A DNA stretch of 17,030 nt, taken from Anaerolineales bacterium. GTDB lineage: Bacteria > Chloroflexota > Anaerolineae > Anaerolineales > Villigracilaceae. The stretch is taken from assembly GCA_016789485.1 (NCBI GenBank), contig JAEURE010000022.1, positions 1 to 17,030 on the forward strand, written 5' to 3'. This document shows, piece after piece, positions 884 to 13,670 of the stretch (the first letter of the stretch is position 1; each line of letters begins with the position of its first letter). The translations under genes were made by a program, and so were the position numbers. The notes beneath the pieces are model-generated. The model saw nothing but the letters and a program-made list of their open reading frames with translations. It was not told the origin of the DNA and did not search any database.

Positions 884-1771
884 TTATTTCTTTCTTCCCA
901 CGGCCAGCATTTTATTGCGGATGGGAAAAATAAAGAAGAAGATATGTACGAACGGCAGAAGAATTTTCACCAGCCGATCAGACCTGATCAGTTTTTTCAA
1001 ATAAAAGCTGTAGGGAAATGACAGCTCATGGAAACGCCGCAGTTCAACCACTTCCAATCCTGCTGCTTCCAGTGCGGACTTCATCTCCGCCAGCGAAAAA
1101 ATCTGCTTATGGCCGAAAGGTTTCGCTGAGTACATGGTATTCAAAAAGGTAGGGTATTTTCCGCGAGAAAGCCAGTAGGTGAATTCACCAAAACGGTGAT
1201 AGAACGCGTCGCGGCAGGGGGTATCGATCAACAGGATACCGCCGCTCTTCAACATCTCCGCCGCGGATTTGAGAGTAGCAAGCGGATAATTGACGTGCTC
1301 GATCACATCCCATAAGGTGACCACATCAAATGTCCCGTGGAACGCCAGCCAATAGTTATCTTCAATAGTACGTTTGACAACTTCAAGCCCGTGCCTGGTT
1401 TTTGCGTAATAAGCACGCGTATCGCTTAGTTCAATGCCAAGCACATCCGCGCCAGCCTTCTTAACCTTGGAGAGGAACAATCCCCCGCCGCAGCCAATAT
1501 CCAAAACTCTTTTCCCGTTGATCTCACCATGTCGTTTGACTGCATCTATTTGATGCTTGACACGTTCAGGGTTTGACTGCAGGGATCTTTCAATATAGGT
1601 TATCTCTTCATCGGTCAGTGCGCTGCCGTCAATGATCGGAGAGATTTCCTCCACAGGATCGAGATGGTCAATAAAGTGGAATCCGTTTGGGGAGACAAAT
1701 ACATTCGCGCTTGATAATTTATATTTTGGGGAACCCGTTATGTTGTGTTTCTGTGAATCGATATTTTCCAT
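884..1771 (-). CDS. class I SAM-dependent methyltransferase (Methyltransf_23/UbiG-like)
   Basis: A 295-residue class I methyltransferase. Motif I is at residues 89-97 (VLDIGCGGG), the acidic residue after strand beta2 is E114 (GIELSD), the post-I motif is at 148-160 (FDVVTLWDVIEHV), and the LKSGGILLIDTP strand is at 174-185. The FSLAEMKSALEAAGLEVVEL segment at 225-244 is typical of the Methyltransf_23 group that acts on lipids, quinones or surface sugars. Residues 268-283 are strongly hydrophobic, which suggests a membrane-associated tail. The roughly 85-residue N-terminal extension before motif I is longer than in UbiG. It is the first gene of an operon with the GNAT and unknown proteins. 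The ribosome site is weak (GAAGG about 9 bases upstream). An extended -10 promoter lies about 40 bases upstream. The substrate is not identifiable. Confidence 0.88.
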   Translation of the reverse strand: MENIDSQKHNITGSPKYKLSSANVFVSPNGFHFIDHLDPVEEISPIIDGSALTDEEITYIERSLQSNPERVKHQIDAVKRHGEINGKRVLDIGCGGGLFLSKVKKAGADVLGIELSDTRAYYAKTRHGLEVVKRTIEDNYWLAFHGTFDVVTLWDVIEHVNYPLATLKSAAEMLKSGGILLIDTPCRDAFYHRFGEFTYWLSRGKYPTFLNTMYSAKPFGHKQIFSLAEMKSALEAAGLEVVELRRFHELSFPYSFYLKKLIRSDRLVKILLPFVHIFFFIFPIRNKMLAVGRKK

Positions 1772-2505: not shown

Positions 2506-2533
2506 ATTATAGAATGTATCAGTTGAAACTCAA
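2506..2533 (-). promoter_or_regulatory. promoter of the SH3b lipoprotein gene
   Basis: On the minus strand TTGAGT (2528-2533) is separated by 16 bases from a perfect TATAAT (2506-2511), a sigma-70-type arrangement. The -35 overlaps the last codons of the upstream methyltransferase. The -10 is about 30 bases before the lipoprotein ATG. Confidence 0.6.
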
Positions 2534-3270
2534 CTCCACCGTTTGTCCCATATCGTGATCAGCATCTTTACCCGTACCCGCACGCGCGCATCCGCATTGG
2601 CTGATGCCCACAGGGAACTTGTCTTTTTATAAACATCCTCTTCCAGTTTCTCAAAGTCTTCCCATTCATCTTCCATGAATTCCTTCATTTCAGATGGAGT
2701 ATCCCAATAATAGAAGAATGCAAACTCCTCTTCTTCTCTTTTGATGTACCATCCCCTGGACTCTGCCTCCCGCATGGCTTTGAACGCCGCTTCATCATCC
2801 GCCACCGCCGCAGGCAGATCGCTCAACCTGCCTGCAGCCTGCCAGCCCGCCGACGAAACCACCTCTACCGACCAGTTTGACTCCACGGGGCGCAAATCAA
2901 TGAGAATGCCGTTTGGTTTGAGTGTTCTGCGAATTTCATCCAGAGCATGAACCATGCTCTCATGTTCCATTCATCAGAGAGACCATGCCAGAATGGCGAT
3001 ATCAAATGTCTCTTTGGAGAAGGGAATGTTACTCGCGCTTGCGCCTGCAAAGTGGACATGCTTCTGCATGGTGTGAGGAGAATCGGCTTGGGCGATGCGC
3101 AAGGCATCATGGTCAGGATCAAACCCAACGGTTAAGGATGAGGCGGCGGCATATTTGAAAGTCAACCGCCCTTCGCCGCATCCAATTTCAAGCACGCCCT
3201 TGTCTTTGAAATTGACAAGCTTATGCAGAGTCTTTTGCTCAAATCCTTCAGGGTCTTTTTGCAATGTCAT
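2530..3270 (-). CDS. class I SAM-dependent methyltransferase with two in-frame UGA codons; candidate selenoprotein
   Basis: One continuous 246-codon frame broken only by two adjacent TGA codons (2974-2976 and 2971-2973, codons 99 and 100). Residues 1-98 carry methyltransferase motif I (VLEIGCGEG, about 26-34), the acidic loop (VGFDPDHDALRIA) and the post-I strand FDIAILAWSL. After TGA-TGA the frame resumes with MEHESMVHALDEIRRTLKPNG, the standard helix and LKPxG turn, then a family-like C-terminal region (101-246) with FFYYWDTPSEM. Class I enzymes normally have two residues (often E-H or similar) exactly where the TGAs fall. Reading them as amino acids restores a normal enzyme; no frameshift is needed and nothing else looks damaged. 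A SECIS-like hairpin follows the UGAs. The ATG overlaps the DUF1801 stop as ATGA. Alternatives are a recent pseudogene, or two polypeptides by reinitiation at 2970, which has no ribosome site. The methyltransferase call is firm; Sec coding is inference. Confidence 0.8.
2937..2964 (-). promoter_or_regulatory. SECIS-like hairpin inside the methyltransferase gene
   Basis: On the minus strand AGAGCATG (2953-2960) and CATGCTCT (2942-2949) form a perfect 8-bp stem around a GTT loop (2950-2952). Beyond a small internal loop, a CAT/ATG pairing (2962-2964 with 2937-2939) adds 3 bp. The apical loop begins 18 bases after the second TGA and 21 after the first. Bacterial SECIS elements are known to lie in the coding region just after the UGA, with the loop about 16-37 bases downstream and a G among its first two positions; this hairpin fits. 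No bulged U like that of E. coli fdhF is obvious. Chance cannot be excluded. Confidence 0.5.
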
Positions 3271-3683
3271 TTGGCAAGCTGCTTCATGGTCTTGTAGGAG
3301 TTCTTGATCAGCTCTTTCAGGACCTTCACGTCTACATCATCCAGCTTCTTGATGTACAAACATCCCACGCTGGTTTTGTGCTTGCCAAGTTTTTTCAGCA
3401 AGTCGGCATGTGCTTCAAAACCTCCCATCAAGTAGAGTGTTAGGTTTTGTTTGCGAGGGGAAAAACCAGTCAACATCCAATCACCTTCGCGTCCGCTTGC
3501 GCCTTTGTAATGGTAGCTTCCAAACCCGACGATGCTTGAACCCCACATTTTCGGTTCTTCCTTGGTAGCTTGCTTCATTATTTTCAGGATCTCAAAACAG
3601 TCTGCGCGTGTTTGTCCGTCTTTAACAGAATTGAGAAAATCTTCCACGCTTGCGTCTGTCTGTTTGGTTTTCAGCTCGGCCAT
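3267..3683 (-). CDS. DUF1801 (YdhG-like) domain protein
   Basis: A 138-residue cytoplasmic protein of the DUF1801 family. The diagnostic run is present: KMWGSSIVGFGSYHYK (about 45-60), then GDWMLTGFSPRKQNLTLYLM (about 67-86) and the C-terminal LGKHKTSVGCLYIKKLDDVD. The fold resembles small alpha/beta proteins of unproven function that are common in bacteria of many phyla. A good ribosome site, AAGGAGA, lies 6 bases before the ATG. The stop overlaps the start of the UGA-containing methyltransferase by four bases, so the two are co-translated. It may be read from upp (60 bases upstream, no terminator between) or from its own extended -10. The biochemical role is unknown. Confidence 0.88.
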   Translation of the reverse strand: MAELKTKQTDASVEDFLNSVKDGQTRADCFEILKIMKQATKEEPKMWGSSIVGFGSYHYKGASGREGDWMLTGFSPRKQNLTLYLMGGFEAHADLLKKLGKHKTSVGCLYIKKLDDVDVKVLKELIKNSYKTMKQLAK

Positions 3684-3743: not shown

Positions 3744-4370
3744 CTAGCCAGTTCCAAACTGCCTGTCGCCTGCATCTCCAAGCCCGGGAACGATGTAGGC
3801 GCGTTCGTTGAGATGATCATCAATTGCAGCGATGTAAATATCAATGTCTGGGTGTGCATCTTGCATGGCTTTTATGCCTTCCGGGGCGGCAATCAACCCG
3901 ACAAATTTGATCTTTGTCACTCCCCAGCGTTTGAGGATATCGGCGGTGGCAGTGGCTGAGCCGCCCGTGGCCAACATTGGGTCGAGAATGAGGCAGACAG
4001 AGACGCGCGGGTCAACGGGTAGTTTGTTGTAATACTCTACAGGTTGGAGCGTGTGTTCATCGCGATACAACCCAATGTGCCATACTTCTGCAGACGGCAT
4101 GAGTTCCCAAATTCCCTCGACCATTCCCAACCCTGCGCGCAGGATGGGGATCAACCCGATCTTCTCCCGCAGTTGCTGGGCTGTCACTGTAGCCAGCGGT
4201 GTTTCAATTTCCACAGGCGTGGTGGCGAGGTCTGCAGTGGCTTCATATGCAAGAAGTCCCGCAATCTCTCGAACGAGTTCGCGGAACTTTTTTGGTTCGG
4301 TGTTCTTGTCTCTTAGTCTTGAAAGTTTGTGGGCAACAAGCGGATGTTTTGACGCGTAAACGTTGGACAT
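3744..4370 (-). CDS. upp: uracil phosphoribosyltransferase
   Basis: A 208-residue enzyme that converts uracil and PRPP to UMP plus pyrophosphate in cytoplasmic pyrimidine salvage. The length is the family norm. Visible signatures are PILRAGLGM (75-83), the PRPP-binding loop [13 protein letters not shown] (129-141), and the uracil-binding C-terminal segment [16 protein letters not shown] (192-207). The start is set by GGAGGAAC immediately upstream and by the usual N-terminus ending in [13 protein letters not shown] (9-21). A promoter lies upstream, facing away from the divergent nitroreductase-family gene. No other pyrimidine gene is nearby, so it appears to be a stand-alone salvage gene whose transcript may continue into the DUF1801 and methyltransferase genes. 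Confidence 0.97.
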
Positions 4371-10145: not shown

Positions 10146-11912
10146 ATGAAAAAAGCTCGATATGTGATGCTTGCATGCATTCTGATTGTTACTTTTATTT
10201 TATCAGCATGCGGTGCAACACCAACCCCGCAATTGATCGTGGTGACTGCGACTTCGGCTCCTGCAACTGAAGCGCCTACTGCGGTGCCGACTGCCACGCT
10301 TGTTCCTGTCGCTCTTTCGGGACCTCAGAATGGATCCACCGTGAAATGGGTGGATGGCAGCACTCTGGTATATATCCCTGCCGGTGACTTTACGATGGGA
10401 GATGACGTTTTTGCTCTCTCTCATAATGTGACTTTGGATGGGTACTGGATCCAGAAGACCAAGATCACCAACCGTATGTACGAACAATGTGTCAAAGTTG
10501 GGATTTGTACAGCGCCATCTCAGGAGTTGGGTGGACCTGTTTTTAGCAACCCAGAGTTTGGAAATCATCCTGTTATAGGTGTGAACTGGTCTCAGGCACA
10601 GGCCTATTGTGCATGGGCGCAGGGAAGTCTGCCTACCGAGGCCCAATGGGAGAAAGCCGCCCGCGGGACGAGTGGAAATACCTATCCTTGGGGAAGCGCC
10701 GCTCCAACATGCGGCCTTCTTAACTTCGCTAATTGTTATAAGAGTACGAGCGGTGTGGAAGCTTTTGCTGCCAGCGGTGCAAGTCCTTATGGTCTGCTGG
10801 ATATGGCGGGTAATACGTTTGAATGGATAAATGACTGGTATGCTGAAAACTACTATTCCACGTCACCGCTTGCCAACCCCACTGGCCCGGAGAGCGGGCA
10901 ATATCGTGTGGTGCGCGGCAGTTCTTTCGAAACTGACGATCAACTGATTGCTTCTGCAATTCGTCGATACAATGAGCCTGTTGATAGCGAACGCGATACC
11001 GGCTTCCGTTGTGTGGTCGCTAGTCCCCAGCCAATTGCTCCGTATTGTCAGCTCTCTGCTTTTGTTCCAACAAACACAAATGTTTCTACAAGCTGTGAAT
11101 TGCCTGAGGGCGTTGTAACGAATCAATATTGCGCACAAGGTGAAACGTATGCCGTAGTGCAACTCTCGTTTGATTCATCATGGAAGGTTCGCGGGACGCG
11201 CCTGATATGTACTGAAGCTATTAGTGGCGGTTTTCGCCAATTAACCTGTGCTGGTCCAGAGACCATCGAATCAACGAATGAGATCGTTGTTTGTAATGAT
11301 TCTTGCTCAAATAGCACTATTGCTGAGAACGTTGCACCTGTATGTGATTCTGGATATACGCTTGACCCAGCAACTGGCATGTGCAATTACACCCCCATCC
11401 TGGCCCAGGTGAGTATTGCTGGTTGTCCCGTTGGGTATTCCATGGTTGATCGTGGCGGGCAGCAAACATGTGCCATTAGTAAGGATGCAAATGGTTCCTG
11501 CCCGGCTGGTTTGTATTTCGACGAGCTGGCTGGCATGTGTGTGCCCCCCAATGGAGAAACCTCTGCACCCTATGGATTTGACAATGCTGCGCTTGCTGCA
11601 CAGACCTATGCTGGCTGTGCGACTGGCTATACCTATAATGAGGGTTTCCAGTGTTGTCAGACAACAACAGGGGGAACTTATCCGGGGTGTGCGCCCGGCT
11701 ATTCATACAATGCTGACCGGAAGTCCTGTGCGCCTACAGGGACTGAACTTAGCGGAGAAGGCTGCACTACTGTGCGTGTGACTACCATTAAGTGTAGTGA
11801 GCCTGTGAATACCTGTGCCCAATATAGCAATAGCGAATCGCGTTGCGTGGCGAATTTCTGTTCGTGGAATGAGGCTGCCGCCAAGTGTGAAATGAGAACC
11901 CCGACCCCATAA
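10146..11912 (+). CDS. FGE-sulfatase-domain lipoprotein with cysteine-rich tail (first paralogue)
   Basis: A 588-residue secreted lipoprotein. The signal peptide ends in the lipobox LSAC (C22). A Thr/Pro/Ala linker runs to about 60. An FGE-sulfatase (SUMF-like, C-type-lectin-related) domain spans about 75-291: YIPAGDFTMG, the LPTEAQWEKAARG signature (162-174), LLDMAGNTFEWINDW (217-231), RVVRGSSF and the closing TGFRCVV. True formylglycine-generating enzymes have two copper-binding cysteines shortly after the GGS segment; here that stretch (258-274) has none, so oxidase activity is unlikely and a binding or structural role is inferred. Residues 301-588 are cysteine-rich with five repeats of a C-x2-G-Y-like module and a final CxW module. 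AAAGGAG lies 6 bases upstream of the ATG. Terminators flank the gene, so it is probably transcribed alone. Confidence 0.85.
   Translation: MKKARYVMLACILIVTFILSACGATPTPQLIVVTATSAPATEAPTAVPTATLVPVALSGPQNGSTVKWVDGSTLVYIPAGDFTMGDDVFALSHNVTLDGYWIQKTKITNRMYEQCVKVGICTAPSQELGGPVFSNPEFGNHPVIGVNWSQAQAYCAWAQGSLPTEAQWEKAARGTSGNTYPWGSAAPTCGLLNFANCYKSTSGVEAFAASGASPYGLLDMAGNTFEWINDWYAENYYSTSPLANPTGPESGQYRVVRGSSFETDDQLIASAIRRYNEPVDSERDTGFRCVVASPQPIAPYCQLSAFVPTNTNVSTSCELPEGVVTNQYCAQGETYAVVQLSFDSSWKVRGTRLICTEAISGGFRQLTCAGPETIESTNEIVVCNDSCSNSTIAENVAPVCDSGYTLDPATGMCNYTPILAQVSIAGCPVGYSMVDRGGQQTCAISKDANGSCPAGLYFDELAGMCVPPNGETSAPYGFDNAALAAQTYAGCATGYTYNEGFQCCQTTTGGTYPGCAPGYSYNADRKSCAPTGTELSGEGCTTVRVTTIKCSEPVNTCAQYSNSESRCVANFCSWNEAAAKCEMRTPTP
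11343..11729 (+). repeat. five copies of a short cysteine module in the first FGE-like protein
   Basis: Residues 400-528 contain CDSGYTLDPATGMC, CPVGYSMVDRGGQQTC, CPAGLYFDELAGMC, CATGYTYNEGFQCC and CAPGYSYNADRKSC. The shared pattern is C-x2-G-[YL]-x-[YFLM]-x(5-8)-C with variable spacers of 9-26 residues. It is a protein-level repeat; the DNA copies are diverged. Each pair of cysteines could form one disulfide, like a reduced EGF-type or knot-like unit. Confidence 0.6.
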
Positions 11913-11951: not shown

Positions 11952-12047
11952 ATGACCTTTGGGTGATGATAAATTTGATACAAAAGGAAATGCAGGGAGT
12001 TATAATTTTTGATATTTGTTGAGCGTGTATTTGAGAAGGAGAATGAG

Positions 12048-13670
12048 ATGAAGAGAGTAGTTGCATTTATTTCCCTCATCGTGTTGACAGCACTAATTTT
12101 GACAGCCTGTAACGTGCCGGTTGAAACAACGCCAACAGAACCGCCGCAAGTTACTGAAGAGCCGTTGGCGGCAACGCAAGCACCTGTTGTTGCATCCACT
12201 GAAACTGCATCTTCTACGCTCGTCACAGTAGATCTGGCTGGTCCGCAAATGGCAGTCGGTTCTAAATACACCTATGTCGATGGGACAGTTCTGGTCGCGG
12301 TCCCGGGCGGCCCATTTATTATGGGATATAACTTTGCGGATAATCCCGAACGCGAGATCAGCGTAGGGGATTTCTGGATTTATAGCACCAAAGTGACCAA
12401 CGCTCAGTACGCCCTGTGCGTGCAGCTCGGGAAGTGCTCCCCGCCAAAAACCGAAGACAGCCCCACCTATGGGGACGCGCGATTTATCAAATTCCCTGTG
12501 ACTGGCGTAACCCATGCACAAGCCACAGATTATTGTTCTTTTGTACATGGTCGCCTTCCCACGGAGGCTGAATGGGAAAAAACTGCCCGAGGACCGGAAG
12601 GGAATCTTTTCCCTTGGGGGAATGGGGGACCAAATTGCAATTTGTTGAATTACAAATTCTGCGTGAGTAAAACCACCTGGGTGAACGAATACAAAGATGG
12701 AATAAGTTATTACAGTGCATTTGATATGTCTGGTAATGCACGTGAATGGGTGGCGGATTGGTACAGCCCCACCTATAACATAGAATCCCCTGAACCAGAC
12801 CCGCTGGGACCGGAACTCGGCGAGAAACGCTCCGTGCGCGGAAGCAGCTATCAGGATAGTGCCGACCCGTCCCTGTCTGCGCATCGCTTCTCTCTGGACC
12901 CGGAAGAGACTCTGCCCGATCTGGGATTTCGCTGCGTTGTAGAAGATCCCACTTACTTTGCTCCCTGGTGTGAACAATTAATATATGTTGGTGAAGGTCT
13001 TGACGGCTCCCAGCCGGATTGTGCCCCCATCGTGGAATGCAATGATGTTTCCATTTCACAAGGATTAAATTGCACGGAAAATTTCACCCCATATACTATT
13101 GTTACTTTCAATTTATCGAATACTCCTCCTGATAATTGGGATTATCAAATGCCGGGTTGTTCGCAATTGCCCGGTGAGCAAACTCCAATAAAAGACAAAT
13201 TCCTATGTAACCCCGGTGATGTGGGACCTGCAAGTGCGCAAGGGGGGTGTTTGTACGGCGTTCCGGCTTTCTGTGAGGCCTGCCCGGCAAATTACAACAA
13301 AGTGGATGGCAAGTGTGTTTGGGATGGCAGCGGAACGGCCGGTACGGCCTGCCTTCCAGGTTCCACCTACGATCCATTGACGCAGTGCTGTTCTGCAATT
13401 CCCGGTGTTGGCGAAGACATTGGCCTCTGCCCGGCTGGGACATATCCTCTGAACGGCGCTTGCGTGGATAATCCCAGTGCTGTACCGGAAAGTGTCGTGC
13501 AAAATATACTCTTTGATAAGTGTACCCCGCCGGTGATTATCACTGTCACTCCGGGCGGCGGGGATGACACGCCTGATGATGGTTGCCAGCCTCCCCCAAA
13601 TGGTTGTGGAAATCAGGTTTTTTGTTCTGCAAATTGTTCCTGCCAATCGCGAACGGCCCCTTGTCCTTGA
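12048..13670 (+). CDS. FGE-sulfatase-domain lipoprotein with cysteine-rich tail (second paralogue)
   Basis: A 540-residue secreted lipoprotein. The signal peptide ends in LTAC (C21); a Thr/Pro/Ala/Val linker follows to about 65. The FGE-sulfatase domain spans about 80-298 with VPGGPFIMG, GRLPTEAEWEKTARG (168-182), FDMSGNAREWVADWY (225-239), SVRGSSYQD and LGFRCVV. As in its neighbour, no cysteine occurs in the region after the GSS where true FGE binds copper. The tail (308-540) carries about three copies of the cysteine module and ends in a Cys-dense segment (513-539). ATG 12048 is preferred to an upstream in-frame TTG (12009) because AAGGAG lies 6 bases before it and the signal peptide then starts normally. 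TATAAT at 12001-12006 may be the -10. The two FGE-like genes share order, linker and domains, so they look like a tandem duplication, now strongly diverged. Confidence 0.85.
   Translation: MKRVVAFISLIVLTALILTACNVPVETTPTEPPQVTEEPLAATQAPVVASTETASSTLVTVDLAGPQMAVGSKYTYVDGTVLVAVPGGPFIMGYNFADNPEREISVGDFWIYSTKVTNAQYALCVQLGKCSPPKTEDSPTYGDARFIKFPVTGVTHAQATDYCSFVHGRLPTEAEWEKTARGPEGNLFPWGNGGPNCNLLNYKFCVSKTTWVNEYKDGISYYSAFDMSGNAREWVADWYSPTYNIESPEPDPLGPELGEKRSVRGSSYQDSADPSLSAHRFSLDPEETLPDLGFRCVVEDPTYFAPWCEQLIYVGEGLDGSQPDCAPIVECNDVSISQGLNCTENFTPYTIVTFNLSNTPPDNWDYQMPGCSQLPGEQTPIKDKFLCNPGDVGPASAQGGCLYGVPAFCEACPANYNKVDGKCVWDGSGTAGTACLPGSTYDPLTQCCSAIPGVGEDIGLCPAGTYPLNGACVDNPSAVPESVVQNILFDKCTPPVIITVTPGGGDDTPDDGCQPPPNGCGNQVFCSANCSCQSRTAPCP
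13281..13463 (+). repeat. three copies of the short cysteine module in the second FGE-like protein
   Basis: Residues 412-472 contain CPANYNKVDGKC, CLPGSTYDPLTQCC and CPAGTYPLNGAC. They fit the same C-x2-[GN]-x-x-x(4-6)-C pattern as the modules of the neighbouring paralogue, including the doubled CC ending seen once in each protein. Confidence 0.55.

Follow-up and report, generated by a model that had tools for sequence, protein, structure and literature searches.

Adjacent UGA codons very probably encode a selenocysteine pair in a family of class I methyltransferases from Chloroflexota

Background

In the majority of characterised selenoproteins, a redox motif is set in a thioredoxin-like fold (PMC13188914). 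Several described systems bear comparison with the gene reported here, a methyltransferase with two adjacent in-frame UGA codons in a 17,030-nucleotide stretch of Anaerolineales DNA (hereafter the window). MduS (NF045649) has, like the family of this gene, a methyltransferase domain and two selenocysteines (Sec) according to the family table of a recent catalogue (PMC13188914); its model spans 338 positions as against about 245 in the window family, from which it is set apart by model score and listed motif. The selenoprotein arsenite methyltransferases, including the fusions NF041536 and NF041537, are likewise SAM-dependent methyltransferases with Sec, their listed motif being UxxG (PMC13188914). 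We infer that this UxxG lies in motif I, where the window family keeps Cys31. HgcA, SaoL, SaoC and MbdU are CU-motif selenoproteins listed with metal or organometal chemistry (PMC13188914); they share a vicinal Sec-containing pair with the window family but are not methyltransferase-domain entries, whereas the latter is a SAM methyltransferase, mostly with Sec-Sec. Finally, TleD (PDB 5gm1 and 5gm2) and other class I natural-product methyltransferases provide a structural comparison, TleD having Cys156-His157 where the window protein has Sec99-Sec100.

The window protein has 41 NCBIfam matches, of which the best 25 all score below their cutoffs, and the best E-value recorded for other family members is 8.9e-22. 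The best match of the window protein, the corrinoid protein-associated methyltransferase CpaM (NF043040), which matches 61 of 61 members, gives 58.5 bits (cutoff 180), and we take it to reflect probable generic domain resemblance; of the arsenite methyltransferase models, NF041536 gives 25.1 bits (cutoff 575) and NF041537 27.6 bits (cutoff 510). The adjacent Sec-Sec motif is absent from the 119 families as tabulated in the 2026 catalogue, some rows of which carry no motif (PMC13188914), and neither bacterial decoding of tandem UGA-UGA nor this family was found by title or abstract among the matches listed from the open-licence literature. As far as the NCBIfam matches of the window protein and the 119-family catalogue go, the family appears to be uncatalogued.

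Results and discussion

A methyltransferase frame interrupted only by tandem UGA codons

The gene for the class I SAM-dependent methyltransferase occupies positions 2530..3270 of the minus strand and comprises 246 codons followed by an ordinary TGA terminator (2532-2530). The sole interruption of the frame running from 3270 to 2530 is a TGA-TGA at 2976-2971, formed by codon 99 (2974..2976) and codon 100 (2971..2973) and flanked by FDIAILAWSL on one side and MEHESMVHALDEIRR on the other; with both UGAs read, the product has 246 residues. The N-terminal part (codons 1-98; 2977..3270, minus strand) ends just beyond strand beta4, and purifying selection acts on the C-terminal part (codons 101-246; 2533..2970, minus strand) in the read-through frame. 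A first-pass annotation, made from the letters of the window, had held that the two halves share one frame with the TGA-TGA alone between them and that UGA is not globally reassigned; both statements are borne out, the latter by the stops at 414, 3267, 13670 and 14498, all of which are TGA.

Conservation of the codon pair across the phylum

Among 96 distinct homologous loci from Chloroflexota, the codon pair is TGA-TGA in 76, TGA-TGC or TGA-TGT in 18 and TGT-TGA in two. Codon 99 is accordingly UGA in 94 loci and TGT in two, and codon 100 is UGA in 78, TGC in 11 and TGT in seven, so that the exchange for Cys mostly affects the second Sec (18 loci as against two for the first). All 96 loci are thus of the UU, UC or CU type (U, Sec; C, Cys), UGA being replaced by Cys alone. 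Neither Cys-Cys nor any other pair occurs at codons 99-100 in the 96 loci, and TGA is the only stop codon at this site, with no TAA or TAG in the set. The suggestion of the first-pass annotation to look for Cys at these codons in homologues was therefore answered with nothing other than Cys or a further UGA. This set consists of 100 rows less four that are identical over 156 nt, after prior removal of L103 (a repeat of L082), the repeats L088-L099 and six viral loci.

The pattern recurs in searches of different design and goes far beyond what chance would give. A contig scan, a single query that recovers close relatives, yielded 22 loci in other genomes with TGA-TGA in 20 and TGA-TGT in two (L027 and L035), all at the same position. 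These loci were collected with six peptide patterns, and since the only one touching the pair site was spelled with Cys, the scan is not biased towards TGA. Reading is straight through in 21 of the 22; the remaining locus, L033, is frameshifted near its 5' end (about 4000-4290), perhaps through an assembly error, and retains the TGA-TGA and the part downstream of it. Surveys of a single phylum, Chloroflexota, with up to 400 genomes sampled around the window's own genome and five to seven candidates scored per genome in the protein searches, recovered the gene in 46 of 396 genomes at the level of the class and, by profile, in 47 of 400 at the level of the phylum. Each of the 48 class matches and each of the 52 phylum matches carries one or two in-frame TGA codons and none has an internal TAA or TAG; a few local alignments extended beyond the C-terminal end as far as a TAG or TGA.

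When the 396 class genomes were searched by profile, the 48 matches with TGA scored at least 174 bits, and three more lay beyond a gap at 68, 66 and 61 bits. The best of these three, L160, has TGA-TGA at the pair column, and the other two have Cys-Ser (L161) and Asn-Asn (L162). L160 (contig 47 of genome G053, 1197-1202, plus strand) is a far relative from another family of the class, at 65-68 bits to the profile, and may perhaps represent a separate branch of double-Sec methyltransferases. Viral contigs yielded six generic methyltransferases, all devoid of TGA, and plasmids a single methyltransferase relative with Cys-Ser at the pair site.

A quick tree of 92 rows, from which L033 (frameshifted), L017 (a near repeat) and the shortened L032 and L036 were omitted, implies at least 14 changes among the UU, UC and CU states. 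One genome has two family copies about 5 kb apart on the same contig (L044 and L087; G148, contig 16), both in the Sec-Cys form. Three loci carry the labels Solirubrobacterales (L017), Herpetosiphon (L021) and Brevefilum (L022), and their genes share 76-81% identity with the Anaerolineales-like gene of the window; these bins may be misnamed.

A covarying SECIS-type hairpin downstream of the pair

Downstream of the codon pair we found a bSECIS-type hairpin, AGAGCAUG-GUU-CAUGCUCU (2942..2960, minus strand), which was not part of the first-pass annotation. On the coding strand the order is UGAUGA, AUGGAACAUG and then the hairpin, whose loop lies 18 nt past the second UGA and 21 nt past the first. 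The published bSECIS rules ask for a stem of 4-16 bp, a loop of 3-9 nt with a G in its first two places, a distance of 16-37 nt from the UGA and a minimum free energy of at most -7.5 (PMC13188914). The window hairpin conforms to them with an 8-bp stem, a GUU loop and distances of 18 and 21 nt, the 57-nt stretch folding at -14.5 kcal/mol. A stem of at least 5 bp, the loop G and the spacing are found together in 95 of the 96 loci and an energy within the limit in all 96. Because 50% of control stretches also have a stem of at least 5, this loosest rule alone is weak evidence for the hairpin; a stem of at least 7 at the allowed spacing is present in 92 of the 96 loci as against 426 of 2832 control stretches from the same loci (15%).

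The fold of the window taken alone is unremarkable (z = -1.71; 15 of 200 shuffles equal or better it), and the case for the hairpin therefore rests on comparison. In the alignment of 91 distinct rows, pairing is kept in 93.5% of 728 cells, as against 21-58% when the partners are slid, and the covariation score is reached by none of 500 shuffles. Two-sided changes are seen at seven of the eight base pairs; they are concentrated at columns 19/33, where A-U alternates with G-C and which contribute 33 of the 44 cells, the other pairs showing them in one to four rows each. Pairing is lost at one end of the stem in 24 of the 91 rows and at the other end in 21. The hairpin is part of the minimum-energy fold in 88 of the 96 loci (73 of 76 UU, 14 of 18 UC and one of two CU) and missing from it in eight. 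Such a hairpin is retained at 20-21 nt in the 18 UC loci, where only the first codon is UGA; of the two CU loci, where only the second is, one has it at 18 nt and the other, L101, lacks a perfect one. The codons themselves are constrained: synonymous codon entropy is 0.25 in the six hairpin codons versus 0.71 in 34 others (35 rows, p = 9e-4), which puts synonymous variation at about one third of the level elsewhere. In the distant relative L160, a 6-bp hairpin (GGACGC/GCGTCC) is possible in the same register at -9.3 kcal/mol, and its minimum-energy fold is a different one at -12.3 kcal/mol.

Selenocysteine machinery and selection on the read-through frame

The genome from which the window derives (2.83 Mb, 75% complete, 477 contigs) encodes SelB (361 bits), SelA (542 bits) and SelD (358 bits), all above cutoff, together with a tRNA-Sec that scores 68.5 bits, likewise above cutoff, and has the anticodon TCA as assigned by ARAGORN. 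All four genes named in the first-pass annotation as a check, selA, selB, selD and selC, are thus present. The selD gene of this genome (L068; G000, contig 355) itself has one in-frame TGA and so is probably a selenoprotein gene too. Across the class, tRNA-Sec was detected in 44 of 46 carriers of the methyltransferase versus 251 of 350 other genomes (p = 1.2e-4, kinship being ignored), with survey filters that lose weak matches; the two carriers in which it went undetected are G186 (64% complete) and G307 (94% complete, 780 contigs). Median dN/dS is 0.15 upstream and 0.13 downstream of the UGAs (22 rows, of whose 231 pairs 72 were usable), and the low downstream value indicates that the part following the UGAs is translated in the read-through frame.

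Based on the conservation of the codons, the hairpin, the Sec machinery and purifying selection, we propose that both UGAs of the methyltransferase very probably encode Sec and share one hairpin, a reading to which we assign a probability of roughly 0.93 from comparative sequence evidence. The earlier proposal that one or both codons specify Sec is in this way upheld by homologue codons, machinery and the covarying hairpin.

Two in-frame stops in one gene, in an assembly as incomplete and fragmented as this one, might suggest a decaying pseudogene or a sequencing or assembly error; given that the same codons recur across many separate assemblies of the phylum, that purifying selection is similar on either side of them, that the frame is intact up to its stop and that the site has TGA, never TAA or TAG, we regard this as extremely improbable. 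Hardly more credible is a split gene in which the UGAs are true stops and a second polypeptide re-initiates at the adjoining ATG (TGATGAATG). Such an ATG does exist in the window at 2970-2968 and the two halves are listed as separate ORFs, yet re-initiation there does not fit because a start codon is not maintained at this place: in 35 near relatives the codon is ATG in 20, GTG in two, CTG in one and ATT, ATC or TTT in 12, and it is ACC in L113. The single-UGA loci, moreover, carry Cys at the other position, and the break would land in the loop after beta4, inside a single domain.

Two further readings are slightly less remote, though both remain very unlikely. That the UGAs are read as Cys or Trp, whether by a suppressor tRNA or by an altered code, would accord with Cys being the sole alternative residue at the pair site and with the RNA-dependent synthesis of Cys in some Chloroflexi (PMC5424206); against it stand the termination of other window genes at TGA, the covarying bSECIS-type hairpin downstream, the Sec machinery with its TCA tRNA-Sec in the same genome and the fact that the main text of the paper on Cys synthesis contains the term "UGA" 0 times (PMC5424206). 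The family might instead be equated with MduS, itself a methyltransferase-domain selenoprotein with two Sec (PMC13188914, Table 1), whose model NF045649 is matched by 54 of the 61 family members at E <= 0.001 (best E-value 1.5e-13). The window protein, however, reaches 36.6 bits, about one tenth of the cutoff of 380, and is scored higher by four models of ordinary methyltransferases, and the catalogue gives the motif of MduS as CxxU (PMC13188914). Furthermore, MduS above cutoff occurs in none of the 400 phylum genomes, 47 of which have the window's family, and the three weak phylum matches to its model (93-101 bits) lack TGA.

Fold, position of the pair and proposed chemistry

The window protein matches the Pfam methyltransferase profiles PF13649 (64.0 bits, cutoff 27) and PF08241 (61.6 bits, cutoff 21.2), and its AlphaFold2 model, built from a 61-row alignment with Sec written as Cys, has a mean pLDDT of 95.7 and a pTM of 0.91; matches above cutoff together with the Rossmann-like fold place it among the class I methyltransferases. 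In each fold comparison, SAM-dependent methyltransferases make up nearly all of the best 50 rows. These comparisons yielded no pointer to a substrate, the class I methyltransferases listed varying in this respect. In the model the pair occupies a short helical turn (98-100) between a strand (89-95) and a helix (103-116), and such a place after beta4 presumably lies near the methyl group of SAM in the class I fold. Ten columns are invariant in the 61 rows: the pair, five residues of motif I, M106, V107 and L110, of which M106 and V107 vary in the wider phylum set. The SAM-binding motif I, EIGCGEGRL (codons 28-36; 3163..3189, minus strand), contributes E28, G30, G32, G34 and L36, and its Cys31 is present in at least 90% of the rows.

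In a profile alignment the pair aligns with Cys156-His157 of TleD (numbers counted along the alignment), which fits the statement of the first-pass annotation that class I methyltransferases have two residues at exactly this point. Two generic relatives, L161 and the plasmid-borne one, have Cys-Ser at the same site. These two relatives suggest that Cys at position 99 may have come first, selenium and the second chalcogen perhaps being peculiar to this family.

We posit that SelB with Sec-tRNA-Sec, brought by the single hairpin, would decode the two UGAs in turn, and that Sec99 and Sec100, in the loop after beta4, would face the SAM methyl. With less certainty, the selenol pair would sit where TleD has Cys-His and the two generic relatives have Cys-Ser. 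There it might bind or activate a soft substrate, such as an arsenic or tellurium metalloid, a chalcogenide or a thiol, for methyl transfer; alternatively, its part in methyl transfer might be that of a redox or nucleophilic pair. As substrate we prefer a soft metalloid, chalcogen or thiol; taken more narrowly, a metalloid or metal on the one hand and a thiol, sulfide or selenide on the other are each a doubtful guess to which we attach the same low weight, what is left falling to other substrates. Somewhat less tentatively, though still at short of even odds, the family may comprise phylum-wide, obligately selenium-dependent methyltransferases in which a vicinal Sec-Sec or Sec-Cys at the SAM site serves as bidentate ligand or redox nucleophile towards a soft metalloid or chalcogen and in which one SECIS has been selected for two UGAs; no Cys-Cys form would then occur, since at least one selenol would be indispensable to the chemistry.

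Gene neighbourhood

Directly upstream lies a DUF1801 gene (3267..3683, minus strand), which overlaps the methyltransferase start by ATGA. When neighbouring ORFs were clustered around 58 loci, many with about 1.5 kb of flank, and the 25 largest clusters were considered, a DUF1801 relative was found close to the gene in 23 loci, a uracil phosphoribosyltransferase cluster in 16 and, as assigned by eye, a putative amidase cluster in 16 and a putative alcohol dehydrogenase cluster in 14. Of 20 distant loci, 15 supplied the 20 neighbours scanned with Pfam, and agreement was limited to close kin (a Bmp protein in L073 and L075, a GH57 protein in L114 and L124). Neither the 58 clustered loci nor the 20 scanned neighbours gave a lead to a shared pathway or substrate. 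Elsewhere in the window, two neighbouring plus-strand genes (10146-11912 and 12009-13670) encode proteins that combine FGE-sulfatase (SUMF1-like) domains with C-terminal parts rich in Cys.

Conclusions

In this family Sec very probably occurs as two neighbouring residues at what would be the active site of a methyltransferase, as against the usual thioredoxin-like redox setting of this residue, and among the loci examined Cys has been swapped in repeatedly at one position of the pair and never at both. This raises the questions of which chemistry requires a selenol pair beside SAM and of how SelB handles two successive UGAs with one hairpin. As automatic annotation halts at UGA, the gene is probably split in two across many Chloroflexota genomes.
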